Origin: Azospirillum sp. TSO22-1 | GTDB taxonomy: Bacteria > Pseudomonadota > Alphaproteobacteria > Azospirillales > Azospirillaceae | Assembly: GCF_003116015.1 (NCBI RefSeq) | Contig: NZ_LGQZ01000072.1 | Span: 1 to 64,000 of the forward strand | Reading direction: 5' to 3' | DNA: 64,000 nt | In this document: piece after piece, positions 3-15,870 of the stretch | How positions within the stretch are numbered: the stretch's first letter is position 1 | Layout of the letters: every line of letters begins with the position of its first letter | The notes under the pieces: model-generated | What the model was told of the DNA's origin: nothing | Database searches by the model: none | Seen by the model: only the letters and a program-made list of their open reading frames with translations | Made by a program: the position numbers and the translations under genes

Positions 3-2564
3 ACCATCGCGCTGACCCAGACCGTCACCGCCGTGAACGACGCCCCCGTCGCCACCGGCAGCACGGCGACCCTCGACGCCATTGCCGAGGACGCGGCCAG
101 TCCGGCCGGCGCCACGGTGTCGTCGCTGTTCGGCGCGCTGTTCTCGGACGCCGCCGACGCGGTGTCCGGCGGCTCCTCGTCGCACGCCCTGGCTGGCGTC
201 GCCATCGTCGGCAACGCGGCGACCGCCGCGCAGGGCGTCTGGCAATATTGGGACGGGACGGGCTGGCGGGCAGTCGGCAGCGTTTCGGACGGCGCCGCGC
301 TAATCATGACGGCAACAGACATACTGCGCTTCGTCCCCGCAGCCGACTGGAACGGAACCGCGCCCGCGCTGACGGTGCGGCTGATCGATGGGTCCGGCGG
401 TGCCGTCGCCTCCGGGGTCGTCGTCGACCTGACCGCCACCGGCGTCGGCGGCGCCACCGCCTACAGCGCCGCGACGGTCGCGCTGACCCAGGAGGTTACC
501 CCCGTCAACGACGCGCCGGCCGTCGCAGCCACCACCGCCTCCCTGACGACCGTCAAGGGGGTAGCGGTCGCCGTGACCGGCCTGTCGGTGTCGGACATCG
601 ACGCTGGATCGGCGCCGGTCCTCGTCACCCTGACGGCCGGCCACGGCACGCTCACCCTGGCGGACGGCGGGACGGACGCCGTCATCACCGGCAATGGAAC
701 CGGCACCGTCACCGTCCGGGCGACCGTGGCGATCATCAACGGCCTGCTCGCCGCGACCGACGGGCTGCAGTACACGGCGGCCTCCTACACCGGCGCCGAC
801 ACGGTGACCGTGACAGTGGACGACCAGGGCGGCGGCGGGGCCGGCGGTGCGCTGACGGCGACCGCCACCGTCGCCATGACCGTCGTCCCGCCGAACGCGT
901 CGCCGGTGCTGCTGGACACCGCCCTGGCGATCTTCACGGCGGCGGAAGCGTCGGCCGCGCCCACCGCCGGCACCGCCGGGATCGCGGTGTCCGCGCTCGT
1001 CGGCCTGAACGGCGCCGGGGCGGCGAACGTCACCGACGGCGACAGCGGCGCCGTGACTGGTATCGCGCTGGTCGGCACCCACGAGACCTATGGTCGCTGG
1101 TGGTTCTCGACCGACGGCGGGGCGAACTGGGCGCTGGTCGGCACGGTCAACGACACGGACGCCGCCCTGCTGCTGCGCCCGGCCGACCGGCTGTACTTCC
1201 AACCCAACGCCGCGGTTCCCGAGACGGTGTCCGGTGCGCTGACCATCCGGGCTTGGGACCAGACCGACGGCGCCTACGGGACGAAGGCCGCCGTGAGCAC
1301 CGCCGCGGGCAGCGCCTTATCCGGCGAGACTGACACGGTGACGCTGCACCCCGCCGTGCTGGTGAGCAACGGGTCCTTCGACCATGGCCTGACCGGCTGG
1401 CTGTCCACCGGCGGGGCATCGGCCACCACCGGCGGCGACGGGCACCAGGGAACGCTGACCTCCATGGCCGGCAAGACGGCGGGCGAACTGGAAACCTACC
1501 TTGGCCTGTCCACCGGCGCCATCGCGGCGGCGGTGGGCGCCACCCCCTCAGCCGGCCACGCCATGAAGCTCGGCAGCGCCATCACGGTGACTCAGGACAC
1601 CACCCTGTCCTTCGACTGGAGCTTCGCGTTCAACGACACCGGCTATTTCGACTTCGGCTTCGTCAGCGTGAACGGCACGGTCACCCTGCTGGCCAAGGCG
1701 GCGAGCGCAAGCGGCACCTTCCATGTGGTCATTCCCGCCAACACCACCGTTTCACTGGGGTTCGGCGTCTCGGACACCACCGACAACAGCGTCAACCCGG
1801 TCCTGACCGTCGACAACATCCGCCTGACGACCGTCGCCAGCGACCCCATCGTGCTGGACATGACCGGCCACGGCCTGTCGCTGCGGCCGCTGTCCGACGG
1901 GGTGCGGTTCGACGTGACGGGCGACGGCGTCGCCGACCAGACCGGCTGGATCGGGTCCGGCAACGCGCTGCTGGCGCGCGACACCAACCACGACGGCCGC
2001 ATCGGCGACGCACGCGAGCTGGTGTCGGAAAAGTTCGGCACCGGCTTCAACAGCAGCCTGGAGGCGCTGGCCTCGCTGGACGGCAACCACGACGGGCGGA
2101 TCGACGCGGCGGACGCCGACTACGGCACGCTGCTGGCCTGGCAGGACGCCGACGGCGACGGCGTGAGCCGGCCGGACGAGCTGAAAACCCTGGCCCAGGC
2201 CGGCATCGCCTCCATCACGGCAACGGCCACGCCCGCCGAGGCCAGCGTGGCCGGCAACCGGGTGCTCGGCACCACCGGCATGACCATGGCCGACGGCGCC
2301 CGGCACGAGGTGGCCGGCGTGTCGTTCGACGTGAAGGCGGGGGTGGGCGGCGTGGTGCAGAGCCATCCCGCCATACCCGACACCGGGATCGGCGGTCCGG
2401 ACTTCGCGGCGATGCTGCGCACCACCTTGGGGACGCCGCACCCGGCCGCGCCCCCGCAGGATCCCGCAGGGGCGGAAGTTTCGGCGTGGATCGCCGATAC
2501 GCACGCCTCCACAGCGCATCCTCACCAATCCGATGGCTCTCCGATCGCGTATCTGTCCCATTGA
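3..2564 (+). CDS. Large repeat adhesin/RTX-like protein, C-terminal part (5' truncated)
   Basis: The reading frame is open to the left edge, so only the last ~853 residues are present. It holds tandem cadherin/VCBS-like repeats marked by the linker VNDAP (near positions 35 and 505) and rich in Ala, Thr, Val and Gly. Near the C-terminus is the segment IVLDMTGHG followed by calcium-loop-like stretches DTNHDGRIGD, DGNHDGRIDAADAD and DADGDGVSRPDE. This layout is typical of giant surface or secreted proteins exported by type I secretion systems. A TolC-ABC-HlyD set starts 140 bases downstream, so this is the likely cargo of that exporter (inference from position). The N-terminus and total length cannot be judged here. 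Confidence 0.8.
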   Translation, partial: TIALTQTVTAVNDAPVATGSTATLDAIAEDAASPAGATVSSLFGALFSDAADAVSGGSSSHALAGVAIVGNAATAAQGVWQYWDGTGWRAVGSVSDGAALIMTATDILRFVPAADWNGTAPALTVRLIDGSGGAVASGVVVDLTATGVGGATAYSAATVALTQEVTPVNDAPAVAATTASLTTVKGVAVAVTGLSVSDIDAGSAPVLVTLTAGHGTLTLADGGTDAVITGNGTGTVTVRATVAIINGLLAATDGLQYTAASYTGADTVTVTVDDQGGGGAGGALTATATVAMTVVPPNASPVLLDTALAIFTAAEASAAPTAGTAGIAVSALVGLNGAGAANVTDGDSGAVTGIALVGTHETYGRWWFSTDGGANWALVGTVNDTDAALLLRPADRLYFQPNAAVPETVSGALTIRAWDQTDGAYGTKAAVSTAAGSALSGETDTVTLHPAVLVSNGSFDHGLTGWLSTGGASATTGGDGHQGTLTSMAGKTAGELETYLGLSTGAIAAAVGATPSAGHAMKLGSAITVTQDTTLSFDWSFAFNDTGYFDFGFVSVNGTVTLLAKAASASGTFHVVIPANTTVSLGFGVSDTTDNSVNPVLTVDNIRLTTVASDPIVLDMTGHGLSLRPLSDGVRFDVTGDGVADQTGWIGSGNALLARDTNHDGRIGDARELVSEKFGTGFNSSLEALASLDGNHDGRIDAADADYGTLLAWQDADGDGVSRPDELKTLAQAGIASITATATPAEASVAGNRVLGTTGMTMADGARHEVAGVSFDVKAGVGGVVQSHPAIPDTGIGGPDFAAMLRTTLGTPHPAAPPQDPAGAEVSAWIADTHASTAHPHQSDGSPIAYLSH

Positions 2565-2704
2565 TCGACGAGTGGGGTGAGAATCATAGGAACGCCACCG
2601 GCCTGAATACCTAAAATGTCATCCTTCCGGCCTGCGCCATACGATACTGTTGGTTCGTTTCGATATAGAAACAGCCAAGCTTTAGAGAGTCCCGCAAGGT
2701 TTCA

Positions 2705-4099
2705 ATGAGTGGTTCCCTGCTCCAGTATGCTGTGCTTGTTCTTGGCTTTTCCTGCCTTGCACAACCTGTAATAGCATCTCCACGCAGTGATGTGGCAGGT
2801 TTGATTGCCAAAGCGGTGGAGACTCATGACCGGTTACGGGCGGCGGTGGCCGGTGCCGACGGCGCCCGCAACGCGCTGCGCGTCAGCTACGGCGGCTGGT
2901 ACCCGACGCTCAGCCTGTCCGTGAACGGCGGGCGCGAGAACACCGACAAGCCGCCCGGCAATCCGAGCACGGACATGGCCGCCAAGCAGCTGTCGCTGCG
3001 GGCGACGCAGCTCATCTGGGACTTCGACGCGACCAACGCCGACATCCGCCGCTCGCAGGTCTCCGTGGTGCGCGCCGACATCGCGGTGGAGCGCACCCGC
3101 CAGGAACTGCTGGTGGAAGGGCTGACGGCCTACGCCAACCTCGTCCGCGCGCACCGCCTGCTGGCTTACGCCAAGCAGTCGGAGGACAACATCCGCCGCC
3201 AGACCGGCCTGGAGGAGGTCCGCCTGCAGGAGGGCTTCGGCTTCACCACCGACGTGCTGCAAGCCAAGAGCCAGCTCGCCGGCGCGCAGGCCCGCCGGGT
3301 CGTGGCGCAGGAGGCGATGCAGAATGCGCTCAGCCGCTTCCAGGCCTTCTTCGGCCACGTCCCGTTCCAGCTGGACGGGGCGGAGGTGCTCGCCGCGGCG
3401 CGCACGCCGCTGCCGCCGACCGAGGCCGCCGTCGTGGACGAGGCGCGGCGGCACAACCCGCGCCTTCAGGAGCTGGCGCTGACCACCGCCGCCGCGCAGG
3501 AGTCGGTGTCGGCGACCCGCAGCCGCACCCTCTACCCACGCGTGGAGGGGTTCGTCGAGCGCAACGTCAAGCACGACGTCGCCGGCTTGCCGGGCCGGCA
3601 GGACGAGCTGCTGTTCAAGATCCAGGTCACCTATTCACTGAACACCGGACTGACCGCCATCAACACCATCCGGCTGGCCGAGGCCGACCTGCGCGCCGCC
3701 GATGCGACCTGGGCCGACCAGGAGCGCAGCACGCTGGAAGCCGTCCGCAACAGCTGGACGCGCCTGGAAAGCGCCCGCACGCAGGCGGCACTGCTGAACG
3801 ACCAAGCCAGCCTGGCCGCCGGCTTCCTCGACGTGGCGCGGGCGGAGCGCGAGCTGGGCAGCCGCTCGCTGATCGACATCCTGACGGGGGAGACCACGCT
3901 GATCAACGCGCGCAGCGACGCGCTGGCGGCAGAGACGGAGCTGGTGCTGGCCGGTTACCGCCTGCTGGCCACCACCGGCCGCCTGAGCAGCACCGATATC
4001 CAGCTGAAGCCGGCGCCCCGGCTCGACCCGATGGGACGGCGCTCGCTCGACGACCTGTCCAGGCCGGCGCCGCGGCGCGGCACGGGGCGGCAGCCATGA
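2705..4099 (+). CDS. TolC-family outer membrane efflux protein (T1SS outer membrane channel)
   Basis: 464 residues. A signal peptide (about 1-24, ending VIAS) is followed by two long alpha-helical/beta repeats typical of TolC trimers; GFGFTTDVLQAKSQLAGAQ and GSRSLIDILTGETTLINA are the characteristic helix-turn motifs of the two halves. It would form the outer membrane channel and periplasmic tunnel of a type I exporter. Its stop overlaps the start of the ABC exporter gene by 4 bases, so the three T1SS genes are translationally coupled. The C-terminal ~35 residues are a proline- and arginine-rich tail. The 140-base gap upstream carries a short GTTTC/GAAAC dyad (2657-2672) and may hold a promoter. 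Confidence 0.88.
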   Translation: MSGSLLQYAVLVLGFSCLAQPVIASPRSDVAGLIAKAVETHDRLRAAVAGADGARNALRVSYGGWYPTLSLSVNGGRENTDKPPGNPSTDMAAKQLSLRATQLIWDFDATNADIRRSQVSVVRADIAVERTRQELLVEGLTAYANLVRAHRLLAYAKQSEDNIRRQTGLEEVRLQEGFGFTTDVLQAKSQLAGAQARRVVAQEAMQNALSRFQAFFGHVPFQLDGAEVLAAARTPLPPTEAAVVDEARRHNPRLQELALTTAAAQESVSATRSRTLYPRVEGFVERNVKHDVAGLPGRQDELLFKIQVTYSLNTGLTAINTIRLAEADLRAADATWADQERSTLEAVRNSWTRLESARTQAALLNDQASLAAGFLDVARAERELGSRSLIDILTGETTLINARSDALAAETELVLAGYRLLATTGRLSSTDIQLKPAPRLDPMGRRSLDDLSRPAPRRGTGRQP

Positions 4100-5778
4100 T
4101 CGGCGGCGCGATGAACGGCCTGCTGGTCCGTCTGCGGTCCAACGGACGGCTGACCGCGCGCGTCGCGGCGGCGTCGCTGGCGGCCAATCTTCTGGGGCTG
4201 GCGTCCTCCTTCTACACGATGCTGGTGCTGAACCGGTACGTGGCGCATGGCGTGGATTCGACGCTGGTGGCGCTCACCGTCGGCGTCGTCCTGTCCATCG
4301 CCTTCGAGCACCTGTTCCGCCACGTCCGGCTGCGCATCGCCGGCCGCATCGGCCGCGTCGATCACGAGCGGACGGCGACCGGCGCGTTCGGCGTCCTGCT
4401 CACCGCCAAGGCCGGCGCGTCCTCCGCCCAGGCCGATTCCGCGCGGCGCGAGGCCCTGCGGGCGCCGGACCAGATCGACGCCGCCTTCGGCTCCGCCACG
4501 CTCGCCACCCTGTTCGACCTGCCCTTCGCGGCGGGGTTCATCCTCATCGTGGCGCTGATCAGCTGGCCGCTGGCCGTCATCTGCGTCGCCTTCACGCTGC
4601 TGTCCATCGGCGCCGGGCTGCTGGCGCAGGCCGACATGCGCGGAGTCGGGCGCGATCTGGCGCAGGCCGGGGCCGACGCCCAGGGACTGGTCACCGCCGC
4701 CATCGTCGGGCGCGATTCCATCGCCCTGTTCGGCGGCGCCAAGCCGCTGTTGACGGAGTGGCAGCGCGCCACGCACGCGCTGCGTGCACTGCGCGAGCGC
4801 ATGTCGATGCGCCAGGGCCGCGCCCAGTCGGCGGCGCAGAGCCTCCAGGCGCTGCAGGGTGTCGCAGTGACCGCGGTGGGCGCGGTGCTGGTGGTGCGCG
4901 GGGGGCTGGACGTCGGCTCGCTGATCGGCGTCAACCTGCTGGTCGGCCGCGCGCTCGCCCCGTTCTCGCGGCTGGCGCAGATCGGCGAGTCCGTCGCCAT
5001 GGCCCGGCAGGCGCAGGCCCGGCTGGAGCAGTTCGCCCGCACGCCGGTCGAGCCGCCGGGCGGCACCATGCTACCGCGCTACGCCGGCACCCTGGAGTTC
5101 CGCGAGCTGACCTACACGCCGCCCGGCGGCGTGACGCCGCTGCTGCGCCGGCTGTCGGCGACCGTGCCGGCCGGCAACATCCTGGTACTGAAGGGCCGCA
5201 ACGGCTCCGGCAAGACGACGCTGGCCCGGCTGATCGCCGGGTTGGCCGAACCGCAGGAGGGCGCGGTGCTGGCCGACGGCGTCGACATCCGCAAGTTCGC
5301 GCCGGCGTGGTGGCGGCAGCAGATCGGCTACCTGCCGCAGGAGCCGACCTTCCTCAACCTGACCATCCGCGAGAACCTGCTGCTCGCCAACCCGCGGCTG
5401 TCGGAGGGCGAACTGCACACCATCCTGCACCGCACGGGCGCCGACCGCACCGTCGCCGACTGCGCCCAGGGGCTGGACACGCCGCTGCGCAACTTCGGGC
5501 ACGAGCTGCCGATCGGCCACCGCCGCCGGCTGGCCCTGGCCCGCGCCCTGGCGGTGGGCGGGCGGCTGATGGTGCTGGACGAGCCGACCGACGGCCTGGA
5601 CGCCGAGGGCACCGCCGTCGTCTACCGCACCCTGATCGAGCTGGCGCGCACCGGCCACACGGTGGTCATCGCCTCGCACGACCCCCGCATCCTCCAGGGC
5701 GCCTCGCTGGTGCTCGACCTCGACGCGGCGCAGGATGGGGCGGTGCTGCGCGCTGGCGTGGGAGCCGCCGCGTCATGA
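4096..5778 (+). CDS. Type I secretion ABC transporter (fused membrane and ATPase domains)
   Basis: 560 residues with the PrtD/LapB-like layout: an N-terminal membrane domain (about 20-290) without an obvious C39 peptidase or C39-like domain, then an ATPase domain. Walker A is GRNGSGKT (367-374), the Q-loop is in LPQEP (413-417), Walker B is LMVLDEP (491-497) and the H-loop is ASHDP. The ABC signature is unusual: LPIGHRRRL at 471-479 in place of LSGGQRQRI, so the usual Ser-Gly-Gly-Gln is lost. It would energise export of a large substrate through HlyD and TolC. Both gene ends overlap neighbours by 4 bases. Confidence 0.87.
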   Translation: MIGGAMNGLLVRLRSNGRLTARVAAASLAANLLGLASSFYTMLVLNRYVAHGVDSTLVALTVGVVLSIAFEHLFRHVRLRIAGRIGRVDHERTATGAFGVLLTAKAGASSAQADSARREALRAPDQIDAAFGSATLATLFDLPFAAGFILIVALISWPLAVICVAFTLLSIGAGLLAQADMRGVGRDLAQAGADAQGLVTAAIVGRDSIALFGGAKPLLTEWQRATHALRALRERMSMRQGRAQSAAQSLQALQGVAVTAVGAVLVVRGGLDVGSLIGVNLLVGRALAPFSRLAQIGESVAMARQAQARLEQFARTPVEPPGGTMLPRYAGTLEFRELTYTPPGGVTPLLRRLSATVPAGNILVLKGRNGSGKTTLARLIAGLAEPQEGAVLADGVDIRKFAPAWWRQQIGYLPQEPTFLNLTIRENLLLANPRLSEGELHTILHRTGADRTVADCAQGLDTPLRNFGHELPIGHRRRLALARALAVGGRLMVLDEPTDGLDAEGTAVVYRTLIELARTGHTVVIASHDPRILQGASLVLDLDAAQDGAVLRAGVGAAAS

Positions 5779-7118
5779 AGGCCCTTCCCGATCTGCTGCG
5801 CAAGCCCGTCCCGCGCCCCGCCTCCGGCCCGGCGCCCGCCGCCGTGGAGGCCGACGCGGACGGCCGTTTCGGCGACGGCCTGTTCGCGCTGAGCTTCGCC
5901 GCCCTGGCCGCCGCCGTCGCCTGGGCCGCGGTGGCCGAGCTGAACGTCACCAGCAGCGCCCCCGGCGACGTGGTGCCGCTCGCCTACAACCAGAGCGTCC
6001 AGCATTTCGAGGGCGGGATCGTCAAAGAGATCCTGGTCCGCGAAGGCGACGCCGTGACCGCCGGCCAGGTGCTGGTCGAGCTGGACCAGACCAAGACCCG
6101 CGCCGACCTGGACGAGCTGGTCATCCGCCTCGATTCCCTCGCCGCCGACGTGGCCCGGCTCGACGCCGAGGTGGCGCGGCGGGAGACCATCGACTTCCCC
6201 GCCGACCTCGCCCGCAACAAACCGGACGTGGTGGCGCAGACGCGCGAGCTGTTCCGCGCCCGGCGCGACCGCCTCGCCTCCGACCTCGACATCCAGCGCC
6301 AGGACATCGCCCAGCGCGAGCAGCAGGCGGCGGCCGTCCGGGCGCGCATCGCCGGCTCCCAGGTCGCCCAGGGGCTGATCCGCGAGCAGCTCGGCATCAG
6401 CGAGACCCTGCTGCGGCGCGAGATCACCAACCGCATGAAGCATCTGGAGATTCTGCGCGACGACGCCCGGGTCAGCGGCGCCATCGCCGAGGACCGCGCC
6501 ACCCTGGCCCAGGCCGAGGCGGCGCTCGCCGAGGCGCGTGCCAAGCTGGTGTGGATCGGCCGCAAGTACGAGGAGGAGAGCCGCAGCGCCCTGGACGAGG
6601 CGCGCCGCAACCACCGCGAACTCTCGCAGCGCCTGACCCGCTTCCAGGACAGCCTGGACCGCGCCAGCCTGAAGGCCCCCATGGACGGGATCGTCAAGAC
6701 GCTGGCCGTGTCCACCAGGGGCGGCGTCGTCAAGGCGGGCGAGACCGTGGTGGAGCTGGTGCCGCGCGACAGCCGGCTGGTCATCGACGCGCGCCTGCCG
6801 GTGCAGGACATCGGCTACGTCCACGCCGGCCAGCCGGTGGCGGTGACGCTGGCCAGCGGCGACGCCGCGCGCTTCGGCCACATCGACGGGCGGGTGGTCA
6901 CCATCAGCCCCGACACGCTGTCCGACGCCAACAAGCAGCCCTACTACAAGGTCCGGGTCGAGCTTCCCGTCACCTCGTTCGAGCGGCACGGCAAGACCTA
7001 TGAGCTGTTCCCCGGCGTGCGCGTGACCTGCGGCATCGTGACCGGGCAGCGCACGATCCTCGACTACGTCTTCTCGCCCGTCCTCGGCGCCCTGCAGAAC
7101 GCGATGCAGGAGCGCTGA
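5775..7118 (+). CDS. HlyD-family periplasmic adaptor of the type I secretion system
   Basis: 447 residues from ATG 5775, chosen because it forms an ATGA overlap with the ABC gene stop. There is one N-terminal membrane helix (about 33-55), a biotinyl-lipoyl half-motif (GGIVKEILVREGDAVTAGQ), a long coiled-coil region (about 110-290), then the second lipoyl half and beta-barrel (APMDGIVKTLAVSTRGGVV). This is the standard membrane fusion protein that bridges the inner-membrane ABC protein and TolC. The C-terminus ILDYVFSPVL resembles the HlyD family end, where HlyD has the RSI-type terminal segment. Confidence 0.9.
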   Translation: MKALPDLLRKPVPRPASGPAPAAVEADADGRFGDGLFALSFAALAAAVAWAAVAELNVTSSAPGDVVPLAYNQSVQHFEGGIVKEILVREGDAVTAGQVLVELDQTKTRADLDELVIRLDSLAADVARLDAEVARRETIDFPADLARNKPDVVAQTRELFRARRDRLASDLDIQRQDIAQREQQAAAVRARIAGSQVAQGLIREQLGISETLLRREITNRMKHLEILRDDARVSGAIAEDRATLAQAEAALAEARAKLVWIGRKYEEESRSALDEARRNHRELSQRLTRFQDSLDRASLKAPMDGIVKTLAVSTRGGVVKAGETVVELVPRDSRLVIDARLPVQDIGYVHAGQPVAVTLASGDAARFGHIDGRVVTISPDTLSDANKQPYYKVRVELPVTSFERHGKTYELFPGVRVTCGIVTGQRTILDYVFSPVLGALQNAMQER

Positions 7119-7120
7119 GG

Positions 7121-7171
7121 ATGACCACGCCCCGCACCGCCCCCCCTCTGCACCGGACCCCCGCATGCTGA
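7121..7171 (+). CDS. Possible 16-residue leader ORF ahead of the MscS fusion gene
   Basis: ATG 7121 lies about 8 bases after an AGGAG sequence and encodes a short peptide (MTTPRTAPPLHRTPAC) whose TGA (7169-7171) overlaps the ATG of the next gene (7165). The next gene has no recognisable Shine-Dalgarno of its own (CACCGGACCCCCGC precedes it). This arrangement would couple its translation to the leader. It could also be chance in a GC-rich spacer; no homology can be claimed at this length. Confidence 0.3.
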   Translation: MTTPRTAPPLHRTPAC

Positions 7172-10100
7172 CGTCCCTGAAGCCCCGCTCCCGGCCGCCG
7201 CTGCGCTGGTCGACGCTGACCAAGAAGGCGCGCTTCGCGCTGATCCTGGCGGCGGCCATGGCCATCACGCTGCTGGTGTCGCTGGTGGTGCGCGCCGGCT
7301 TCCTCGGGGCGCAGGCGCGCGAACCGGTGGTCCTGGCCGTGGTCGGGCCGCTCAGCGGACCGGACGCGGCGCTCGGGCAGGCCATGCGCAAGGGCGCCGC
7401 GCTGCGCGCCGACACCCTCAACGCCGCCGGCGGCATCAACGGCCACCCGGTCGTCGTCAAGCCGTTCGACGACGAGGGCGACAAGGCGAAGTCGCTGGAG
7501 ATCGCGCGGCGCGTCGCCGCCGACCCGTCCGTCGTCGCCGCGCTGGGCCATCACCCGGACGCCGCGGAGGGCGCGGCGGTGATCTACGCCCAGAAGAAGA
7601 TCCCGCTGGTCGCCGCGCGCCCCGCCGTCCGCCCGGCCGAGGCGCCGGCGAACCCCTGGCTGTTCAGCATCAACCTGGAGCGCGCCAACGAGACGCGCTT
7701 CCTCGCCAACTACGTCCGCAACGTGGTGGGCGAGCCGACCATCGCCGTGGTCCGCGAGGACACCGAGCAGGGCGCGGCGCTGGCCGGGCAGTTCGACGCC
7801 ATCCTCCAGCGCTTCGGCACCAAGCTGGTCGCCCAGTGGACCTACGCGCCGGGTGCGGCCGGGACGGCCGAGATGGCGGCGCTGGGGCAGACGGTGAAGG
7901 AGAAGATGCCCACCGGCGCCATCGTGGTGCTGGGCTCGGCGGCGGACAGCGCGCGGGTGGTGGTGGCGCTGCGCAACGCCGGGGTGCGCAACCTGGTGGC
8001 CGGCACGTCGGAGATGGCGACCAGCGCCTTCCGCGCCGAGATCGTCGCCCAGGTCCGCAACCAGCCGAAGGCGCAGCCGCCGGAAGCCTATGGGCACGGA
8101 CTGCTGGTCTCCTCGCCGGTGCTGTTCGACACGGCGAACGAGCAGGCGCAGCGTTTCTACGGCCAGTACGTCAAGCGCTTCAACGCGGTGCCCGACTGGG
8201 CGGCGGCGATGGGCAACGACGGCGTCGGCCTGATCGCCGAGGCCGTCGCCAGGGCGGTTCCCGCCGACGGCAAGGTGGACGGCCACGGCGAGGCGGTCCG
8301 CCGCGCCATCGCCGACCACGACCGGGCCGAGACGGCCTTCCAGGGCAACGTCGGCACCTGGACCCTCGACGGGCGCGGGCGGGCGACGCTGCCGGTGATG
8401 ATGGCGACCTACAACGGCCTCAACCCGGTGGCGGCGCTGACCCAGTTGCAGCCCATCCGCGAGGCCGGGGTCTCCAACTACCTGGAGGAGGTGACGCGCG
8501 GCCGGGCGCTCTACGTCAACGACCGCTTCATGTACAAGACGAACGTCATCTACACCGGCGTCCAGCTGCACGAGGTGCGCGACCTCAACCCGGCCCAGAA
8601 CGAGGCGACGCTGAATCTGACCGTCTGGTTCCGCTACCGCGGCGCCTTCAACCCGGCCGACGTCGTCTTCGCCAACGCGGTCAAGCCGGTCGACCTCGGC
8701 AAGCCCTACCGCGAAGAGCGGGGCGAGGTGATGACCTACGCCGCCTATCGCATCGAGGGGCGGTTCGCGCTGGATTTCTCCGACCAGCGGCTGGCCTACG
8801 GCAGCCACCTGGCCGGCGTCAGCTTCCGCCACCGCACGCTCAACCGCAACAACGTGATGTTCGTCACCGACGTGCTGGGCATGGCGCTGGTGGACACCGG
8901 CGACTTCGTCGACAAGCTGAAGGCCATGGCGGCGGCCGAGAGCGCCTCCATCGCCGAGCCGGGCCTCGCCGACCGCCTACGCCGCGCGCTGGAGGGGGAG
9001 TCCGAGGGCTCCGCCCTGCTCGACCAGCTGCGCGCCGCGCGGGTGCTGGCCGCGGCGCCCGGCTGGCGGCTGGCGCGGGCCTCGATCTCGCAGGACGTGG
9101 CGTCGGTCAGCAGCGAGGGCGATCCCAACTACGTCGGCTTCGGCCGGCCGCAGCCGGACTTCTCGCGCGTCGATTTCGGCGTGGTGGTGGTGCCCGACGC
9201 GCTGGCGGCGCGCGACGTCATCAACCGCGACTTCTTCGTCTACATCGCCATCTTCAGCGCCGTGCTGGCGGTCTTCGCCGCCTTCATGGACCGGCGCGAC
9301 CGCGGGCAGTTCTGGCGCATCCAGACGCTGTTCATGCGCATCCTGTCCTGGCCGCTCCTGCTGATGTCGGCCGGCAACATCACGCTGGACTGGGCGGTGG
9401 CCGCCCTACCGCCGAGCGGCGTGGCGACGGTGGTCAACGGCTTCGCCGTGCTGTGGTGGATCGTGCCGGCGGTCCTGGTCAACCGGACCATGGAGCATTT
9501 CATCTGGACGCCGCTGGAGATCCGCACCCAGCGCAAGATCCCCGGCATCGTCCGCCGCTTCTCCACGCTGATCGTGTTCGGCTTCGCCGGCTGCGGCATC
9601 ATCGCCTTCGTGCTGAACCAGCCGATCACCAGCCTGCTGGCGGCCTCCGGCCTCGTCGGCATGGTCGTCGGCCTCGCCATCCAGGCGAACATCGCCAACG
9701 TCTTCTCCGGCATCGTCCTGAACATCGAGCGGCCGTTCAAGATCGGCGACAGCATCCAGATCACCGATGTGGTGCGCGGCGTCGTGGTCGATATGACGTG
9801 GCGCACGGTGCGGGTGCGCAACGCCGCCGGCTTCATCGTCGCCATGCCGAACGCCAAGGCGTCGGAGGCGACCGTCGTCAACTTCAGCGCGGTCGAGCGC
9901 GTCTGGATGCGGCTGGAGTATTTCGCCGACGGCCGCCACGAGCCGGGCGCCATGGCCGCCCTGCTGACCGCCGCGCTGCGCGCCACCGACCGGGTGATGC
10001 CCAGCGCCGCCGGCGCGCAGCCCTTCGTCCGCTACGACGGCTTCCACAGCGTCGGCGGGCAGTGGCTGTGCCGCTACAACCTGATCTTCTGGGTCAAGGA

Positions 10101-10257
10101 CCACGACGCCAGCTTCGCCGTGCCGGAGCTGGTGTGGCGGTCGGTCTACAAGACGCTGGCCGACGCCGGCATCGACCCAACCCCGCCCGACCTGACGGAT
10201 GCCGGCGCCATGCAGCTCGCCGCCTCCGCCGCCCCCCGTTCCCCGCTTCCGGCTTGA
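7165..10257 (+). CDS. Periplasmic-binding-domain / Cys-loop-like / MscS channel fusion protein
   Basis: 1030 residues. A membrane helix (about 22-44) is followed by a type I periplasmic binding fold of the branched-chain amino acid type (about 53-425; VVGPLSGPDAALGQAMRKGA, HGLLVSSPVLFDT, MGNDGVGLIAEAVA). Residues 440-680 form a beta-rich segment resembling the extracellular domain of pentameric ligand-gated channels (VIYTGVQLHEVRDLNPAQNEATLNLTVWFRYR spans 461-492). Helices follow at about 690-708, 722-745, 757-773 and 798-818. Residues 820-1000 are a clear MscS channel with the Gly/Ala-rich pore helix (ASGLVGMVVGLAIQANIANV) and NIERPFKIGDSI. I infer a ligand-gated MscS-type channel in the inner membrane with periplasmic sensors. 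The ends are certain; the ligand is unknown. Confidence 0.85.
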   Translation: MLTSLKPRSRPPLRWSTLTKKARFALILAAAMAITLLVSLVVRAGFLGAQAREPVVLAVVGPLSGPDAALGQAMRKGAALRADTLNAAGGINGHPVVVKPFDDEGDKAKSLEIARRVAADPSVVAALGHHPDAAEGAAVIYAQKKIPLVAARPAVRPAEAPANPWLFSINLERANETRFLANYVRNVVGEPTIAVVREDTEQGAALAGQFDAILQRFGTKLVAQWTYAPGAAGTAEMAALGQTVKEKMPTGAIVVLGSAADSARVVVALRNAGVRNLVAGTSEMATSAFRAEIVAQVRNQPKAQPPEAYGHGLLVSSPVLFDTANEQAQRFYGQYVKRFNAVPDWAAAMGNDGVGLIAEAVARAVPADGKVDGHGEAVRRAIADHDRAETAFQGNVGTWTLDGRGRATLPVMMATYNGLNPVAALTQLQPIREAGVSNYLEEVTRGRALYVNDRFMYKTNVIYTGVQLHEVRDLNPAQNEATLNLTVWFRYRGAFNPADVVFANAVKPVDLGKPYREERGEVMTYAAYRIEGRFALDFSDQRLAYGSHLAGVSFRHRTLNRNNVMFVTDVLGMALVDTGDFVDKLKAMAAAESASIAEPGLADRLRRALEGESEGSALLDQLRAARVLAAAPGWRLARASISQDVASVSSEGDPNYVGFGRPQPDFSRVDFGVVVVPDALAARDVINRDFFVYIAIFSAVLAVFAAFMDRRDRGQFWRIQTLFMRILSWPLLLMSAGNITLDWAVAALPPSGVATVVNGFAVLWWIVPAVLVNRTMEHFIWTPLEIRTQRKIPGIVRRFSTLIVFGFAGCGIIAFVLNQPITSLLAASGLVGMVVGLAIQANIANVFSGIVLNIERPFKIGDSIQITDVVRGVVVDMTWRTVRVRNAAGFIVAMPNAKASEATVVNFSAVERVWMRLEYFADGRHEPGAMAALLTAALRATDRVMPSAAGAQPFVRYDGFHSVGGQWLCRYNLIFWVKDHDASFAVPELVWRSVYKTLADAGIDPTPPDLTDAGAMQLAASAAPRSPLPA

Positions 10258-10259
10258 GC

Positions 10260-10631
10260 ATGAGGCCGCCCGTGATCCGAAACCTATACGTCCTGCTGGG
10301 CGCCCTGCCGGTCCTGCTGGCCAGCTCCGCCTGCGCCCCGCTGGGCGGCGGCTCCTCACCCGCCATCCTGGAGCGCATCGCCGACGGGGAGTACGACATC
10401 GGCATCCGCTACCCGTCGCGGCGCGCCCGCTACGTCATGATCGTCGACCAGGACGAGGACACCCTGACCGTCTCCAACCGCGCGGCGGTGGCGGAACCGG
10501 GCGCCCCAGAACCCGCCGTGGCGCAGCCCGCCGACCGGGTGCTGGCGCCCTGCGCCGAGGCGCTGGGCAACTGGTACCGCCACACGCCGGCCGGCTACGT
10601 CTGCGTCGGCGACGGCGCGCCGGGAGGCTGA
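10260..10631 (+). CDS. Small lipoprotein of unknown function
   Basis: 123 residues from ATG 10260, two bases after the preceding stop. The N-terminus has a lipoprotein signal with a lipobox (LASSAC, Cys about residue 25). The remainder is soluble with no family I recognise; it contains IADGEYDIGIRYPSRRARYVMIVDQ and two further cysteines (APCAEA, GYVCVG) that could form a disulfide. It sits directly before the TssJ-like lipoprotein, so it may be an outer membrane partner of the same assembly. Confidence 0.7.
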   Translation: MRPPVIRNLYVLLGALPVLLASSACAPLGGGSSPAILERIADGEYDIGIRYPSRRARYVMIVDQDEDTLTVSNRAAVAEPGAPEPAVAQPADRVLAPCAEALGNWYRHTPAGYVCVGDGAPGG

Positions 10632-10634
10632 ACG

Positions 10635-11072
10635 ATGCGGGGAGTGGTCATCGCGTTTCTCCTGCTCCAGGGATGCGCCGCCGCGGCACCGGCGCCGGGC
10701 GTGGACGCCCTGCACATCGAGGCGGACGCCGTGGCGAACGGCCGCCGGCCGGTCGCCGTCGATGTCGTGCGGGTCGGCGACGCCGCACTCGCCGAGCGTC
10801 TCGACGGGCTGGACGCGGCGGCGTGGTTCCGCACGCGGATCGCGCTCCGCCGCGAGGCGGGCGGGCGGATCGCCATCGCCTCGTGGGAGGTCGTGCCCGG
10901 CCAGACCATCGCCCTGCACAGCCTGCCACCCTACGCCGCGACGCCGGTCGCCACCTTCGTGTACGCGCGCTACGCCACGCCGGGCGCGCACCGGGCGCGG
11001 CTGGCGGGCGCGGCGCCGGTCCGCCTGCGGCTCGGCCCCGACGGGTTCGCCGCCGAAGGCGGTGCGCCGTGA
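10635..11072 (+). CDS. tssJ: TssJ-like lipoprotein (type VI secretion membrane complex type)
   Basis: 145 residues. The signal peptide ends in a lipobox (LLLQGC), so the mature protein would be anchored to the outer membrane by Cys14. The body matches the TssJ/SciN pattern in outline: NGRRPVAVDVVRVGD (pattern N..GR.PV.V.V..L.D), a following helix ALAERLDGLDAAAWF, then WEVVPGQTIAL and PVATFVYARYATPGAHRARL. In T6SS, TssJ binds the periplasmic end of TssM. The gene overlaps the TssL-like gene by 4 bases (GTGA). The divergence is high, and the identification rests partly on the TssL- and TssM-like neighbours. Confidence 0.65.
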   Translation: MRGVVIAFLLLQGCAAAAPAPGVDALHIEADAVANGRRPVAVDVVRVGDAALAERLDGLDAAAWFRTRIALRREAGGRIAIASWEVVPGQTIALHSLPPYAATPVATFVYARYATPGAHRARLAGAAPVRLRLGPDGFAAEGGAP

Positions 11073-11767
11073 CGGCCGTGCTCGACACCCTCCGTCCGGC
11101 CACCCGCGCCGGCACGCCGCCCGGCGCGATGGCGCTGTTCCGGCCGTTCGTCGCCGAGCTGACGGCCTGCTGCGCGGCGTCCACCCCCGCCGCCGACCGC
11201 CTGACCGACGCGCTGCGCGCGATGACGGACGCCGCCGCGGGGCACGGCCCCGGCGCCCACGGTGCGACCGTCAAGGCGGTCTTCGCCATGGCGATGCTGG
11301 CCGACCGCGCGCTCGCCCAGACCCGCCCGGCGGAGGCGGTCGTCGCCCAGCGCCTGTTCGGCGCCAACGGCACCCTGCAGATCCTCTTCGTCCAGGCCGA
11401 CGACCTGATCCGCCTGGGCGACAAGGCCGACCGCGATCTGGCCTCCGTCTACCTCGCCGTGCTGGCGCTCGGCTTCGCCGAGGACGCCGACGCGGCGGCG
11501 CGCCGCCCCTCGCTGCACCGCATCGCAGCCGGCGAGCGGAACGAGAGCAGCCGCCCCAGCCCGCGCGCCTACGAGCCGCCCGGCGGCGCCATTCCGGGGG
11601 AGGCCCGGCCGTCGGCCAAGCGCTGGTGGTGGGCGCTGGGCGCCGTCGCCGCCGCCTTCCTGCTTGCCAGTCATCTGCTGTGGACCGGCGCCACCGAGAA
11701 TCTGGCCGCCGACCTGCGCGGCGCCCGCGCCGCCATCGAGGACATGGGGCTCGCATGGTCCTACTGA
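11069..11767 (+). CDS. tssL: TssL/DotU-like protein (type VI secretion membrane complex type)
   Basis: 232 residues from GTG 11069. A cytosolic helical region with VVAQRLFGANG, FVQADDLIRLGD and LASVYLAVLALGFAEDADAA corresponds to the DotU/TssL pattern (W..PL...LFG, then L.VYYLCLALGF.G). A Pro-rich linker and one C-terminal membrane helix (about 187-206, WWWALGAVAAAFLLASHLLW) give the expected tail-anchored topology. No peptidoglycan-binding OmpA domain is attached. It overlaps the TssJ-like gene by 4 bases and the TssM-like gene by 1 or 13 bases. Confidence 0.65.
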   Translation: MTAVLDTLRPATRAGTPPGAMALFRPFVAELTACCAASTPAADRLTDALRAMTDAAAGHGPGAHGATVKAVFAMAMLADRALAQTRPAEAVVAQRLFGANGTLQILFVQADDLIRLGDKADRDLASVYLAVLALGFAEDADAAARRPSLHRIAAGERNESSRPSPRAYEPPGGAIPGEARPSAKRWWWALGAVAAAFLLASHLLWTGATENLAADLRGARAAIEDMGLAWSY

Positions 11768-14700
11768 TGGTCGCGCTGGAGATGCTGCTGTCCGCGATCG
11801 GGACGGCCGTCGCCACTCTTCTGCCCTACGCGCTGGTCGGCGTGCCGCTGTACGTGGCGTACCGCATCGCCCGCGCGGCATGGCCGCGGCTCGCCGCCGC
11901 CCTGCGCTCCCCCGCCAAGGCGAAGGTGAAGCCACGGCCGAAGGCTACGGCAGTCCGCAAGACGCCGACACCGTTGCGCATCCGCCGGGAGGCACCGGCC
12001 GCCGCACCCGCCGCGGCGTCCAGCCTCGCGCCGCTGGCCTGCGTCTATGGCGAGGGGCTGGACATCCTGAAGCGCCAGATGCGCGGCCCGCTGCGGCGCG
12101 GCGACATCCCCTGGTTCGTGGCCTTCGGCGTCGGCGGGCAGGCGCTGCTCGCCACCGACCCCACCCATGTCCGCTGGCCGGAGGACGGCAACGGCGAGTC
12201 CGGCGCGTGGTGGTTCTGCGAGGGCGCGGCGATCCTGCACGCCGGCACCGATTCCGCCGACGGCGCCCGCCTGGACGAGGCGTGGCCGGCGCTGATGGCG
12301 GCGATGCGCGCCCGGCCGATGCGCCGCCCGCTGGACGGCGTCCTGCTGATGGTCGGCGCCGACGAGCTGCGCGCCGCGGCGCAACGCGACGCCCCGCGCG
12401 ACGCCCTGCTCCGCCGCGCCGCCGCCCTGCGGGACCGCCTGTGCGCCGTGCAGAACGGCCTCGGCGTGGTCTGTCCCGTGCACGTCGTGGTGACCCGGGC
12501 GGAGGCGCTGGACGGCTTCGCCGACCTTTGCGCCACCGTCCCGGCCGGCCTGCTGGACGGCGCCCTCGGCTGGACCAGCCCGCACGACTGGGCGGACGTC
12601 TTCGACCCGCGCTGGGTGGATGAAGCGGTGGGCGCCCTGCGGGCCGACCTCGCGCGGCTGGAGGCCGACGCGCTGGCCGCCGGCACCGCCCGGCCAGGCC
12701 TGCTGCTGCTGCCGCTGGCGCTCGACGCGGTGCGCGACCCGCTGGCCCTGTTCCTGGAGGCGGCGCTGCGCCCGGCGGAGGGGGCCGAGCCGTTCCCGCT
12801 GCGCGGCATCACGCTGACCGGGGCCCACAGCACCGTGACCGGGGGGCGGCGCCCGGTCTTCGCGCGCGACCTCCTGCCCGGCCGCGCCCTGGCCGAGGCC
12901 GGCTACGGCCGGCCGTCCGACCGCGCCTTCCGGACGGCGCGCCGCCGCCGGCATCAGGCGCAGGGCGCGCTGGCGGCCTCGGTCGTCGCTCTGTCGGCGA
13001 TGGCGTGGCAGGGCGCCGTCCGCGTGGCCGAGCCGGTCCCGGCGGTCACCGCCGGCGTGGCGGACCTGCGCAAGGGCTTGGCCGGGCGCGACGGGGCCGG
13101 CGACCCGCAGGTGGTCGGCCGGATCCTGGCCGCCACCGCCCTGATGGAACACACCACCGTCGCCACGCCGCTGCTGCCGACGTCGCTGCTCAGCCGGCTG
13201 GACGAGGACAAGCGGCGGCTCGCCGCGGCGACGGTGCGACGGGCGGTGCTGCGACCGATCCGCGACGCGCTGCTGCCCAGGAACGGCTTCGCCGACATGC
13301 CGCCGGTGCCGGACCCGCGACGGGTGGAGGATCTGCCCGGCCTGCGCCGCCTCTCCGACCAGCTCGAGCGCGTCGCCGGACGGCGCGACGCGCTCGACCG
13401 CTACGAGCGGTTCCGGCGGCGCGGCCACTTCAGCGAGCTGGTCGAGCTGTCGGACAGCGTCTTCGGCCACGTCCGCCGGCCCGCCGTGCCGGCCAGCGAC
13501 GCCTTCACCACCCGCATCGCCGCGGGCGCCGACCTGCCCGACCTCGACGCCCGCGCCATCGCCGCCGCCGTGCGCGCCGAATCCGTCCGGCTCGCCGAGC
13601 CGCTGGCCGAGGAGCTCTATACCCGCTCGCCCCTGCACGTGCGCGCCGAGGCCCTGGCCAACCGGCTGCGCGCCCTGCCGGAGGTGCCCTTCGCCGAGGA
13701 CGCGGCCGAGGTCCGCCGCCTCGCCGAGCGCGTGACCGAGGCCGCCGTGTGGCCGATCTCCAGGGCCGTGCTGGAGCCGGCCTCCGGCCTGCCGGATGCG
13801 GTCAAGGCCCTGATCCAGCGCGCCGCTCTCAACGAGCTGCCGGGCCGGGACGCGGCGGAGCGGATCGCCGAGATGCTCTCCACCGCCGGGGCCGCGGCCC
13901 GCACCGACCTGCTCGCCCTGGAGGCGCCGCACATCGGGCGCCTGTTCGTACAGCCGGACGGCGGCCCGGCGCTGACGGTGTCGTCCGCCATCGCCGCGCT
14001 GCCCGACCGCTTGGCCGAGGCGGTGGCCAGCCGGCCGGAAGCCCCCGCACCGGCGCCCGCCTCGCCGCCGGAGCCGGAGCCCGTCCGGCCGGCGCCCGTG
14101 GCGAAGACCCCCGCTCCACCGTCACCGCCAGTCGAGGCGGCGCCAAAGCCCGATCCGGCCCCCGTTCCGGCCGCGACGGCGGTCATCGAAAAGCTGGAAG
14201 TGCCGCCGGTCGTCACCATGGCGGCCCCACGGCCCGCGCCGGAACGCCTTCCCGACGCTCCCGACGCAACGCTGATGAAGCTCGGCACGACCTTCTCGGA
14301 GACGCTGGCCGGGCGGTTCCCCTTCGTGCGGCCCGATCGCGCTCAGGGTGCGCCCGACGCCGATCCGGAGGACGTCCGGCAGTTCTACCGCCTTCTCGAC
14401 GCAGCGAAGGCGGCGTCCGGCCGCGGCCTGCCGCCCGAGCTGAAGGCCTTCGCCGACCGGATGGACGCCGCCCGCCCGCTGCTGGAAGCGGCACTCCGGC
14501 CGGCCGGCATGACCGTGGAGTTGACGTACGGCGTCAACCGGGCGGCCGAGGTCGGCGCGGAACACATCATCGACTGGTCGGTGCGCTCCGGCGCCTCCGC
14601 CATTGGCGCGGGGGGAGGCGGCAACCGCCTCGCCTGGGGCGTCGGGCAACCGATCCTGCTGAGCTTCCGTTGGGCCGCCGGTTCACCTTTTCGCCCGAAG

Positions 14701-14982
14701 AGCGCCGCGAGCGGCGGGGCGCCGGCCATGGCAGGTGACACCCTCACCGTGGTCGAGCACGGGCCATGGGCGCTGCTGCGTCTCCTCAAGGGGCGGGCCC
14801 AGCCCGGCGCGCCGCCGTCGGAGGCCGGTGCGCTCGTCCGCATGGTCCTGCCGACCGAAACCATCGCCGGCCTTCCGGCGCGCGACACGGTTCTGTTCCT
14901 GGCCGCCTCGGTGACGGCTAACGGCAAGGCGCCGGCCCCGTTGCGGCTGCCGGACCTGCCGGTCGCTTACCCGCATTGGTAG
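11755..14982 (+). CDS. tssM: TssM/IcmF-like inner membrane protein without Walker A
   Basis: 1075 residues from ATG 11755 (ATG 11767, forming a TGATG junction, is equally possible). Membrane helices lie near 5-38 and 403-422. The cytosolic part follows the IcmF/TssM order: IPWFVAFGVGG (118-128), WWFCEGAAILHAG, RPLDGVLLMVGADEL, CPVHVVVTRAEALDGF, ALGWTSP, FLEAALRP, PFPLRGITLTGA. The nucleotide-binding GxxGxGKT is replaced by FGVGGQALL, so NTP binding looks lost; some functional TssM proteins also lack it. The periplasmic part contains a Pro-rich linker (about 760-825) and a TssM-type C-terminal beta domain (EHGPWALLRLLKG). Together with the TssJ- and TssL-like neighbours it would make a trans-envelope complex. 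Confidence 0.75.
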   Translation: MVLLMVALEMLLSAIGTAVATLLPYALVGVPLYVAYRIARAAWPRLAAALRSPAKAKVKPRPKATAVRKTPTPLRIRREAPAAAPAAASSLAPLACVYGEGLDILKRQMRGPLRRGDIPWFVAFGVGGQALLATDPTHVRWPEDGNGESGAWWFCEGAAILHAGTDSADGARLDEAWPALMAAMRARPMRRPLDGVLLMVGADELRAAAQRDAPRDALLRRAAALRDRLCAVQNGLGVVCPVHVVVTRAEALDGFADLCATVPAGLLDGALGWTSPHDWADVFDPRWVDEAVGALRADLARLEADALAAGTARPGLLLLPLALDAVRDPLALFLEAALRPAEGAEPFPLRGITLTGAHSTVTGGRRPVFARDLLPGRALAEAGYGRPSDRAFRTARRRRHQAQGALAASVVALSAMAWQGAVRVAEPVPAVTAGVADLRKGLAGRDGAGDPQVVGRILAATALMEHTTVATPLLPTSLLSRLDEDKRRLAAATVRRAVLRPIRDALLPRNGFADMPPVPDPRRVEDLPGLRRLSDQLERVAGRRDALDRYERFRRRGHFSELVELSDSVFGHVRRPAVPASDAFTTRIAAGADLPDLDARAIAAAVRAESVRLAEPLAEELYTRSPLHVRAEALANRLRALPEVPFAEDAAEVRRLAERVTEAAVWPISRAVLEPASGLPDAVKALIQRAALNELPGRDAAERIAEMLSTAGAAARTDLLALEAPHIGRLFVQPDGGPALTVSSAIAALPDRLAEAVASRPEAPAPAPASPPEPEPVRPAPVAKTPAPPSPPVEAAPKPDPAPVPAATAVIEKLEVPPVVTMAAPRPAPERLPDAPDATLMKLGTTFSETLAGRFPFVRPDRAQGAPDADPEDVRQFYRLLDAAKAASGRGLPPELKAFADRMDAARPLLEAALRPAGMTVELTYGVNRAAEVGAEHIIDWSVRSGASAIGAGGGGNRLAWGVGQPILLSFRWAAGSPFRPKSAASGGAPAMAGDTLTVVEHGPWALLRLLKGRAQPGAPPSEAGALVRMVLPTETIAGLPARDTVLFLAASVTANGKAPAPLRLPDLPVAYPHW

Positions 14983-15334
14983 AGAATCTGTAACAAAATT
15001 CTTCTGTCGCAAATTGTCTGAATTCGACAGACGAAATCCGCGTAAACCCTTAATGGCATTAACTGATTTTTAAAAACGCCCCTCAAATAGTGAGATCACG
15101 TGACAACGTCTGCAATAGAAAGCCATATAAAAATAGAGAGTACTGTGTCATTACGCGAAGTGTGCATCATGACGCACCTCAACCTACGTATTATGTGTCG
15201 AAAAATAAGTGGTGGCCTTCTCTGGCGCGAAAATCCGGTCCCTGGCGCCTGAAAACCCCACCAATCCTGCGCGCGAGCGCCCCAATCCACCCGTTAAACG
15301 TGCAACTCACACCGCTCCCTGAAAGGCATGGTTC
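14983..15334. other. AT-rich intergenic gap splitting the large gene run
   Basis: These 352 bases hold no convincing gene and have markedly more A+T than the surroundings (for example TAACAAAATTCTTC, GATTTTTAAAAACG, CCATATAAAAATAGAGAG). Short dyads are GTCTG..CAGAC around 15017-15033 and GTGC..GCAC near 15163. The most likely content is a terminator or attenuation region for the upstream genes and a promoter for the DUF697 gene. No U-tract hairpin could be assigned with confidence. Confidence 0.6.
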
Positions 15335-15835
15335 ATGGAAGACCGTAACAAGCGCGCTCTCGCACTGGTCAAGTATCACAGCTACGCCTCCGGCGCGCTC
15401 GGCCTCATCCCGGTTCCGGGCGCCGACGTCGCCGCGGTCAGCGCCGCCCAGCTCAACATGATCCACAAGCTGGCCAAGCTGTACGGCGTCGAGTTCGCGC
15501 AGGAGCGCACCCGCGCCATCGTCGTCGCCCTCATCGGCGGCGTGATGCCCGGCGCGCTCAGCGGCAGCGTCCTCGGCTCCGCGGTGAAGGCCGTGCCGTT
15601 CCTCGGCACCGCGCTGGGCATGGCGGTGATGCCGGCCCTGTCGCTGGCGGCGACCCAGGCGCTCGGCCGCGTGTTCATCCAGCACTTCGAGACCGGCGGC
15701 ACCCTGCTGGACTTCGATACCGACGCGATGCGCGAGCACTTCCGCCGCGAGTTCGAGCAGGCCAAGGCCGAAAACCCCGAGGCGTCCGTGGACGCCCCGC
15801 AGATGGAAGAGCCGGCCGTCAAGAAGGCGGTCTGA
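15335..15835 (+). CDS. DUF697-like membrane-associated protein
   Basis: 166 residues. The pattern LIPVPGADVAAVSAAQLNMI-KLAKLYGVEFAQERTRAIV matches the DUF697 family, found alone or fused to GTPases. A central hydrophobic Gly/Ala region (about 66-112) probably makes two membrane hairpins, followed by an acidic C-terminal tail. GAAAGG precedes ATG 15335. It is the first gene after the AT-rich gap and probably heads a second transcript of the cluster. Its function is not established in the family. Confidence 0.65.
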   Translation: MEDRNKRALALVKYHSYASGALGLIPVPGADVAAVSAAQLNMIHKLAKLYGVEFAQERTRAIVVALIGGVMPGALSGSVLGSAVKAVPFLGTALGMAVMPALSLAATQALGRVFIQHFETGGTLLDFDTDAMREHFRREFEQAKAENPEASVDAPQMEEPAVKKAV

Positions 15836-15870
15836 CCTCCAGGCGCGCCGGGCGAAAGGAAAGCATCATC

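Follow-up and report, generated by a model that had tools for sequence, protein, structure and literature searches.

What kind of channel is encoded by the long open reading frame (ORF) at positions 7165–10257 of contig NZ_LGQZ01000072.1 of Azospirillum sp. TSO22-1 (assembly GCF_003116015.1), and what does it work with? In the 64,000-nucleotide stretch analysed here (positions 1 to 64,000 of the forward strand, hereafter the window), this ORF was initially annotated, from the letters alone, as a sensor-channel joining a type I periplasmic binding protein (PBP) domain, a domain resembling the ligand-binding domain (LBD) of pentameric ligand-gated ion channels (pLGICs) and an MscS pore. This three-part description was borne out: the product is almost certainly an inner-membrane protein with a large periplasmic part, in which a Cys-loop-receptor-type domain comes after a type I PBP domain, and in its membrane part an MscS channel takes the place of the four-transmembrane (4TM) pore of a pLGIC. 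Gene context suggests that it works with a giant surface protein; to the whole statement, a three-part channel working with a giant adhesin and gated by the retained anchor of that adhesin or by a ligand, we would give a probability of about 0.45.

Anatomy of the three-part protein

GC values of.69/.48/.97 at the three codon positions gave the ORF a clear signature of coding sequence, and in its 1,030-aa product the residues quoted by the initial annotation lie where it had placed them, V461 opening VIYTGVQLHEV and TVWFRYR spanning T486 to R492. Pfam searches gave Peripla_BP_6 at residues 54–413 (121 bits, cut-off 31.7; E 1e-34) and MS_channel_2nd at residues 843–908 (57.4 bits, cut-off 20.2; E 2e-15), in agreement with the binding domain and the MscS pore and beta domain that had been proposed, and LivJ-type binding proteins and E. 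coli MscS were matched among PDB sequences with phmmer. The full-length AlphaFold2 model had a predicted local distance difference test (pLDDT) score of 81.5, and the hydrophobic helix at residues 20–47 is probably an uncleaved membrane anchor. In an alignment of 52 members, drawn from 80 (79 relatives plus the window) by omitting many near-duplicates and broken or cut ones, the gate positions M833 and L837, which we take to correspond to L105 and L109 of E. coli MscS, were M in 46/52 and L in 44/52 members, respectively.

The middle segment (about residues 440–684) had no Pfam match at E<=1, Neur_chan_LBD was not among the 15 Pfam families matched by the 52 aligned middle domains, and the middle-domain profile (A2) found one match among PDB sequences, at E 1, and nothing significant. 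Because these direct searches returned no significant match, tests of the fold and of a profile bridge were needed. With AlphaFold2 the domain formed a beta sandwich (pLDDT 76.5 when modelled alone, most strand blocks 83–95) whose last strand closely precedes the first membrane helix. Foldseek (E<=0.001) gave 1,100 PDB matches, of which the best 50 were all extracellular domains or chains of nicotinic receptors or acetylcholine-binding proteins, the best E being 6.5e-9.

The bridge started from the A2 profile, which matched in 41 of 398 genomes of the phylum. Besides the long MscS-type proteins, the matches were ORFs mostly of about 707–780 aa (domain E down to 4e-17) and of 337–372 aa; PBP-pLGIC proteins were matched at E about 1e-12. 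Three architectures were represented, PBP + LBD + MscS, PBP + LBD + 4TM and LBD + 4TM, with the MscS type in 22 genomes (including G320 and G453, counted by LBD similarity, their genes ending before the pore) and 4TM types only in 19. Ten matches were checked with Pfam, and every Neur_chan score obtained was below the Pfam cut-offs: Peripla_BP_6 was accompanied by Neur_chan_memb (E 1e-4 to 0.02) and Neur_chan_LBD (E 0.007–0.02) in L113, L116 and L126, by Neur_chan_memb in L115 and by MS_channel_2nd in L110; L120 had Neur_chan_LBD (E 6e-5), L125 and L123 only the PBP of the PBP, Neur_chan and MS_channel families, and L121 and L122 none of these. Aligned with hhalign to 24 4TM-type segments covering LBD and pore, A2 gave a probability of 99.3 over 191 columns at 17% identity, the E-value referring to this single comparison. 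A profile of 19 4TM-type segments (A4) in turn matched solved pLGICs among PDB sequences at E 8e-28 to 4e-21 (best 60 of 314), namely GLIC, its chimeras with glycine and GABA-A receptors, and GABA-A, glycine and GluCl chains. A pLGIC-type fold in residues 440–680 is thus supported, as the initial annotation had predicted.

Some results speak against assigning the domain to this fold. The TM-scores to the pLGIC matches were moderate (0.42–0.48 by query, 0.33–0.60 by target) and the root-mean-square deviations high (4.9–14.4), and A2 missed, with a score below zero, a true bacterial pLGIC (L088), which was found at E 1e-22 by the profile of the 24 4TM-type segments and was the one above cut-off of two matches when 289 class genomes were searched with Neur_chan_LBD.

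The PFD motif of the Pro-loop was found in 0/52 MscS-type rows and in 17/19 4TM-type rows (18/19 by a looser pattern), and cysteines within the LBD occurred in 3/52 MscS-type members, one each, so that no member has a Cys loop proper. In pLGICs this loop touches the pore domain, and its loss would be expected if the contact between LBD and pore domain is gone. As neither a 4TM pore nor the Pro-loop was found, we class the channel with the MscS superfamily, as a member bearing a new sensor, and not with the pLGICs. It shares with that superfamily the pore helix, the beta domain and the cytoplasmic alpha/beta domain, and differs by the added periplasmic pLGIC-type LBD and PBP. Ligand-modulated MscS members exist in the bacterial cyclic nucleotide-gated (bCNG) channels, where sensing is via a cytoplasmic nucleotide domain.

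The same domain order, for which a search of other genomes had been proposed, recurred widely. Relatives from species genomes made up 79 loci (best 80 of 85 stretches; identity 30–82%), and in 72/79 the match began no later than residue 57 and reached at least residue 978; of the other seven, six were truncated where the contig or locus stops, and in L083 the match starts at residue 109. They include Azospirillum, Skermanella, Arenibaculum, Magnetospirillum, Magnetococcales, Desulfamplus, Acetobacteraceae and some beta- and gammaproteobacterial metagenome-assembled genomes (MAGs). Magnetotactic lineages (Magnetococcales, Magnetospirillum, Desulfamplus) were frequent among L030–L087, which sampling bias may explain, and L080, labelled Mesoflavibacter, had a gene order so close to that of Pacificispira L082 that the label may be wrong. 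The genome of the window has a single copy of the full fusion. Genome G393 (L181) has two different MscS-type three-part channels (46–3111 and 13858–17271) on opposite strands about 11 kb apart, with TolC and HlyD genes between them.

A probable exchange of the pore between channel superfamilies

Channels combining a type I PBP domain with a Cys-loop domain, of the acetylcholine receptor type ligand-gated ion channel (ART-LGIC) class, have been described in Magnetospirillum and Bradyrhizobium (Tasneem et al., PMC549065). They have the same order, PBP then LBD, and differ in having a 4TM pLGIC pore where the window protein has an MscS pore. Neither "MscS" nor "mechanosensitive" occurs in that article, nor "MscS" or "periplasmic" in a later pLGIC inventory (PMC4795631). 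The initial annotation had named no described channel with all three domains; likewise, no description of the MscS, PBP and LBD combination was found in the openly licensed literature, among the matches listed.

Both periplasmic domains are homologous by sequence to those of the PBP-4TM proteins found here. The LBD tree had 60 rows, of which the 42 of the MscS type formed one clade (support 98/92), and the next branch was L111, which has the PBP-LBD-4TM architecture and an intact PFD but was weakly placed (89/31) in a tree where several long branches leave the outer nodes unsure; in the PBP tree (46 rows) L111 grouped with the MscS-type rows (85/84). Because the two trees agree in placing L111 near the MscS type, PBP and LBD appear to travel jointly while the pore differs. 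The PBP-LBD pair is, as judged by sequence, homologous to that of PBP-pLGIC channels, and therefore the pore would have been exchanged. The simplest reading is a single exchange, in one direction or the other, between the two channel superfamilies, since the MscS-type LBDs form one clade beside 4TM relatives. The PBP-LBD-4TM protein L167 (L111:1138–3432), which in both its PBP and its LBD comes near the MscS type, is a candidate intermediate of the exchange.

Giant surface proteins and their repeat module

A giant ORF lay directly upstream of the channel in 16/37 usable representatives, a count that leaves out L039 and L056 (masked stretches), the matches in the window and L032 being shadow frames. 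The four giants scanned first had cadherin, laminin-G, Big_9, nidogen, FG-GAP or CshA repeats. The 80 loci were reduced to 47 at 75% identity, with 34 representatives of at least 12 kb, and genes of a type I secretion system (T1SS) were common among these: TolC, HlyD and the ABC transporter occurred together in 20/34 and TolC or HlyD in 22/34, whereas around 4TM or plain pLGIC genes (20 loci, 10.9–19.9 kb) all three occurred in 0/20, TolC with HlyD in 1 and either in 2. It counts against this contrast that the MscS-type loci were themselves the source of the T1SS models, which favours detection there. In L030 and L060, HlyD was above the NCBIfam cut-off, and the type I families of TolC and ABC transporter were the best matches but below theirs.

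Other loci carried two-partner secretion (TPS) genes, with TPS domains in L059 and L061, ShlB/FhaC in L059, L061 and L079, and MBG or YDG repeats in L059, L064 and L083; L068 and L070 were assigned to this group by BLAST cluster only. Because such loci have two-partner genes instead, the T1SS itself was rejected as the partner of the channel. A very divergent MscS-type member (L179, genome G642, a single contig) had no T1SS or giant gene within 19.9 kb.

At T1SS loci the giants open with an N-terminal array of repeats (consensus LLTALASGENVAEAL), judged by eye to be helical. A repeat matrix derived from seven giants was significant within the first 600 residues of 8/8 others (L171–L178), none of 300 composition shuffles reaching the score, and in residues 600–1200 it was significant in 0/7. 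A matrix from Desulfamplus only recovered the module in 4/4 alphaproteobacterial giants. The module has no Pfam name, as scattered Pfam matches were seen in at most 2/13 members. A plain hidden Markov model (HMM) of the repeat detected nothing in full-length two-partner giants, and in the last 450 residues it gave weak matches in 1/7 (L068, E 0.49). With the full matrix, the C-terminal 450 residues of the two-partner or presumed two-partner giants scored in 4/7 at a loose cut. As the score drops to 3/7 at the strict cut (p<0.05) and to 1/7 with the Desulfamplus-only matrix, a repeat at these C-termini is only suggestive.

The repeat module occurred in 16/398 genomes (E<=1e-5), 15 of them among the 22 genomes with an MscS-type channel (Fisher p 4.6e-21, uncorrected for phylogeny), and in 0/19 genomes with 4TM types only. 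The sole module genome without an MscS-type channel, G446, is 76% complete. By-eye counts within one family (f185) gave the module in 8/11 matching genomes of a genus with the MscS type (g298) and in 0/6 genomes of a genus with 4TM only (g311). The genome of the window has the module on contig C215, within an ORF that is truncated at the edge of the contig (L183:3–2750). This ORF would be the front half of the giant protein whose C-terminal part stands at the start of the window, and the gene thus appears split over two contigs.

Further points weigh against tying the channel to such proteins. At E<=1e-5 the module was absent from 7/22 channel genomes, among them G642, with the single contig described above, and G299, in which a 2,799-aa ORF lies directly upstream of the channel; in two of the 22 (G320, G453) the channel gene is cut before the pore; and the C-termini of the two-partner or presumed two-partner giants scored in 4/7 with the full matrix and in 1/7 with the Desulfamplus-only one. 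Taken together, we consider a functional link between the channel and the giant surface protein to be probable. This link, as well as the conflict of symmetries considered below, goes beyond the initial annotation, and no link of the three-part channel to an adhesin or a T1SS was found in the openly licensed literature, among the matches listed.

Proposed gating of the channel, and neighbouring genes

By this reading, the channel would work with a giant exported adhesin, which at T1SS loci is one with the N-terminal helical-repeat module. The module would be the end exported last and may stay in the periplasm, where the PBP and LBD of the channel could bind it, or else a ligand whose presence reflects attachment. 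Binding would shift the LBD, whose last strand leads straight into the first membrane helix, and its movement might open or close the hydrophobic gate of MscS formed by M833 and L837. The resulting flux of ions or osmolytes might signal the anchored or loaded state of the adhesin, or adjust the membrane while the cell attaches. The step in which the anchor gates the channel is doubtful: binding of the anchor is inferred from gene context, and pLGIC-type LBDs are pentameric and MscS pores heptameric, so a symmetry mismatch is built into the fusion. A bolder version, which we hold to be rather unlikely, is that of a natural chimera that is both a new channel class and a new adhesin-control system, in which a Cys-loop LBD gates an MscS pore, its ligand is the periplasm-retained repeat anchor, and anchoring or tension is turned into ion flux independently of cyclic di-GMP and LapG.

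Large adhesins of both the T1SS and the type Vb class are reported to keep a periplasmic retention module, and an inner-membrane receptor controls the step via a protease (PMC13090378). The Lap-type system (LapA/LapD/LapG) and the type Vb adhesin of P. aeruginosa resemble the present one, as proposed, in that a giant adhesin has a module kept back in the periplasm and is joined by a receptor of the inner membrane that reaches into the periplasm with one domain, and differ in that the retention domain there is of beta strands, whereas a helical-repeat array is found here and the membrane partner is a channel. No LapG-family (Peptidase_C93) protease was matched at E<=0.001 in the genome of the window.

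What the periplasmic domains bind was approached through their conserved residues. The initial annotation had suggested a small ligand such as an amino acid. The amino-acid-binding motif of LivJ, which consists of S..[ST], a spacer and [ST][AS]T, was scored in the PBP and was found in 0/52 MscS-type rows; the final triplet alone, anywhere in the PBP segment, occurred in 8/52. The 4TM type, unlike the MscS type, keeps both this motif (18/20 PBP rows) and the PFD. PBP residues of about 153–164, at the end of the LivJ-type motif, were among the most variable, and the most conserved PBP stretches were RFLANYxRN and LFDTA. An amino acid as ligand of the PBP is therefore not supported by the sequences. 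In the LBD, W488, presumably on the loop D strand, was invariant in 52/52 members, and a GDP..VGFG motif, presumably of loop C, was present, of which G[DN]P is common to several 4TM rows; these residues, assigned to loops D and C by alignment, are compatible with a working LBD site and point to no particular ligand. The mean majority-residue frequency was 0.46 in the PBP, 0.60 in the LBD, 0.59 in the four membrane helices, 0.66 in the pore helix and beta domain, the best conserved part, and 0.37 in the C-terminal domain.

These residues bear on a conventional channel in which the LBD, and perhaps the PBP, binds a periplasmic solute or ion, e.g. Ca2+ or an amine, and in which the adhesin neighbourhood reflects co-regulation for surface life with no contact. 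The conservation of the LBD above that of the PBP, with its W488 and loop C motif, would fit this, as would the proposal that the PBP-pLGIC cousins are small-molecule sensors (PMC549065). We think it unlikely, given that the PBP lacks the amino-acid motif and that such a channel has no need of a tight link to one repeat module in giants. Still less likely is an adhesin-linked mechanosensor, with the periplasmic domains a passive tether or collar and the pore opened by membrane tension or by a pull via the anchored adhesin: it would account for the retained gate residues, for the Pro-loop coupling motif missing in 52/52 and for the giant adjoining the channel in many loci, but the conservation of the LBD, ligand-loop positions included, exceeds what a tether appears to need. 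That the protein does not conduct and instead serves as a scaffold or assembly factor in adhesin export, as might be suggested by a gene flanked by HlyD and an IcmF/DotU-like membrane operon in Azospirillum and its near relatives, is very improbable, as conservation is highest in the pore helix and beta domain, the gate positions are retained and the channel accompanies two different export systems.

If the adhesin-linked, LBD-gated reading is true, the LBD of neurotransmitter receptors would be a portable module able to drive an unrelated pore, and two questions would become testable in the fusion: by what means an LBD is coupled to a pore when the Pro-loop contact is missing, and whether a symmetry of 5 or of 7 prevails. 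It would also indicate that nitrogen-fixing Azospirillum, magnetotactic lineages and other groups have a channel linked to an adhesin, and the unnamed adhesin repeat module would gain a candidate partner.

Table 1. Coordinates in the window of the channel gene, its parts and the genes around it (res, residues)
Feature	Position	Strand	Basis or remark
Giant surface protein, C-terminal part	33..2564	+	Cadherin_4 at E 2e-4, below cut-off
TolC-family outer-membrane protein, type I secretion	2705..4099	+	family match below curated cut-off
Type I secretion ABC transporter, LssB/PrtD-like	4096..5778	+	family match below curated cut-off
HlyD-family adaptor, start uncertain	5757..7118	+	382 bits, cut-off 209
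Three-part channel gene, PBP-I + Cys-loop-receptor-type LBD + MscS pore, 1030 aa, ORF complete	7165..10257	+	Pfam, AlphaFold2, Foldseek, relatives
N-terminal hydrophobic helix, res 20–47	7222..7305	+	hydropathy, AlphaFold2 helix
Type I periplasmic binding domain, res 54–413	7324..8403	+	Pfam, PDB matches
pLGIC-type extracellular/ligand-binding domain, res 440–684	8482..9216	+	AlphaFold2, Foldseek, profile bridge
Four membrane helices ahead of pore helix, res 688–816	9226..9612	+	AlphaFold2, hydropathy
MscS pore helix, res 821–855	9625..9729	+	AlphaFold2, residue alignment
MscS beta domain, res 843–908	9691..9888	+	Pfam MS_channel_2nd
MscS-type cytoplasmic alpha/beta domain, res 913–1003, poorly conserved	9901..10173	+	AlphaFold2, conservation
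Small putative lipoprotein, no family	10260..10631	+	signal judged by eye; 2 bp 3' of channel gene
Putative lipoprotein, no family	10635..11072	+	by eye; TssJ-like position
DotU/TssL-like protein	11069..11767	+	E 3e-5, below Pfam cut-off
IcmF/TssM-like protein, divergent orphan	11755..14982	+	start approximate

The genes at 10260–14982 form an orphan TssJLM-like operon directly 3' of the channel gene (Table 1). An IcmF-like gene was found at 22/80 loci, namely the window, 20 loci of Azospirillum or close relatives (L009, L011–L029) and one gammaproteobacterial MAG (L071), and because nearly all of these are Azospirillum or close relatives, the TssJLM-like genes were rejected as a conserved partner of the channel. 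On another contig of the same genome (C1), VipB is found together with another IcmF, and because the two share that contig, a separate type VI secretion system is likely.

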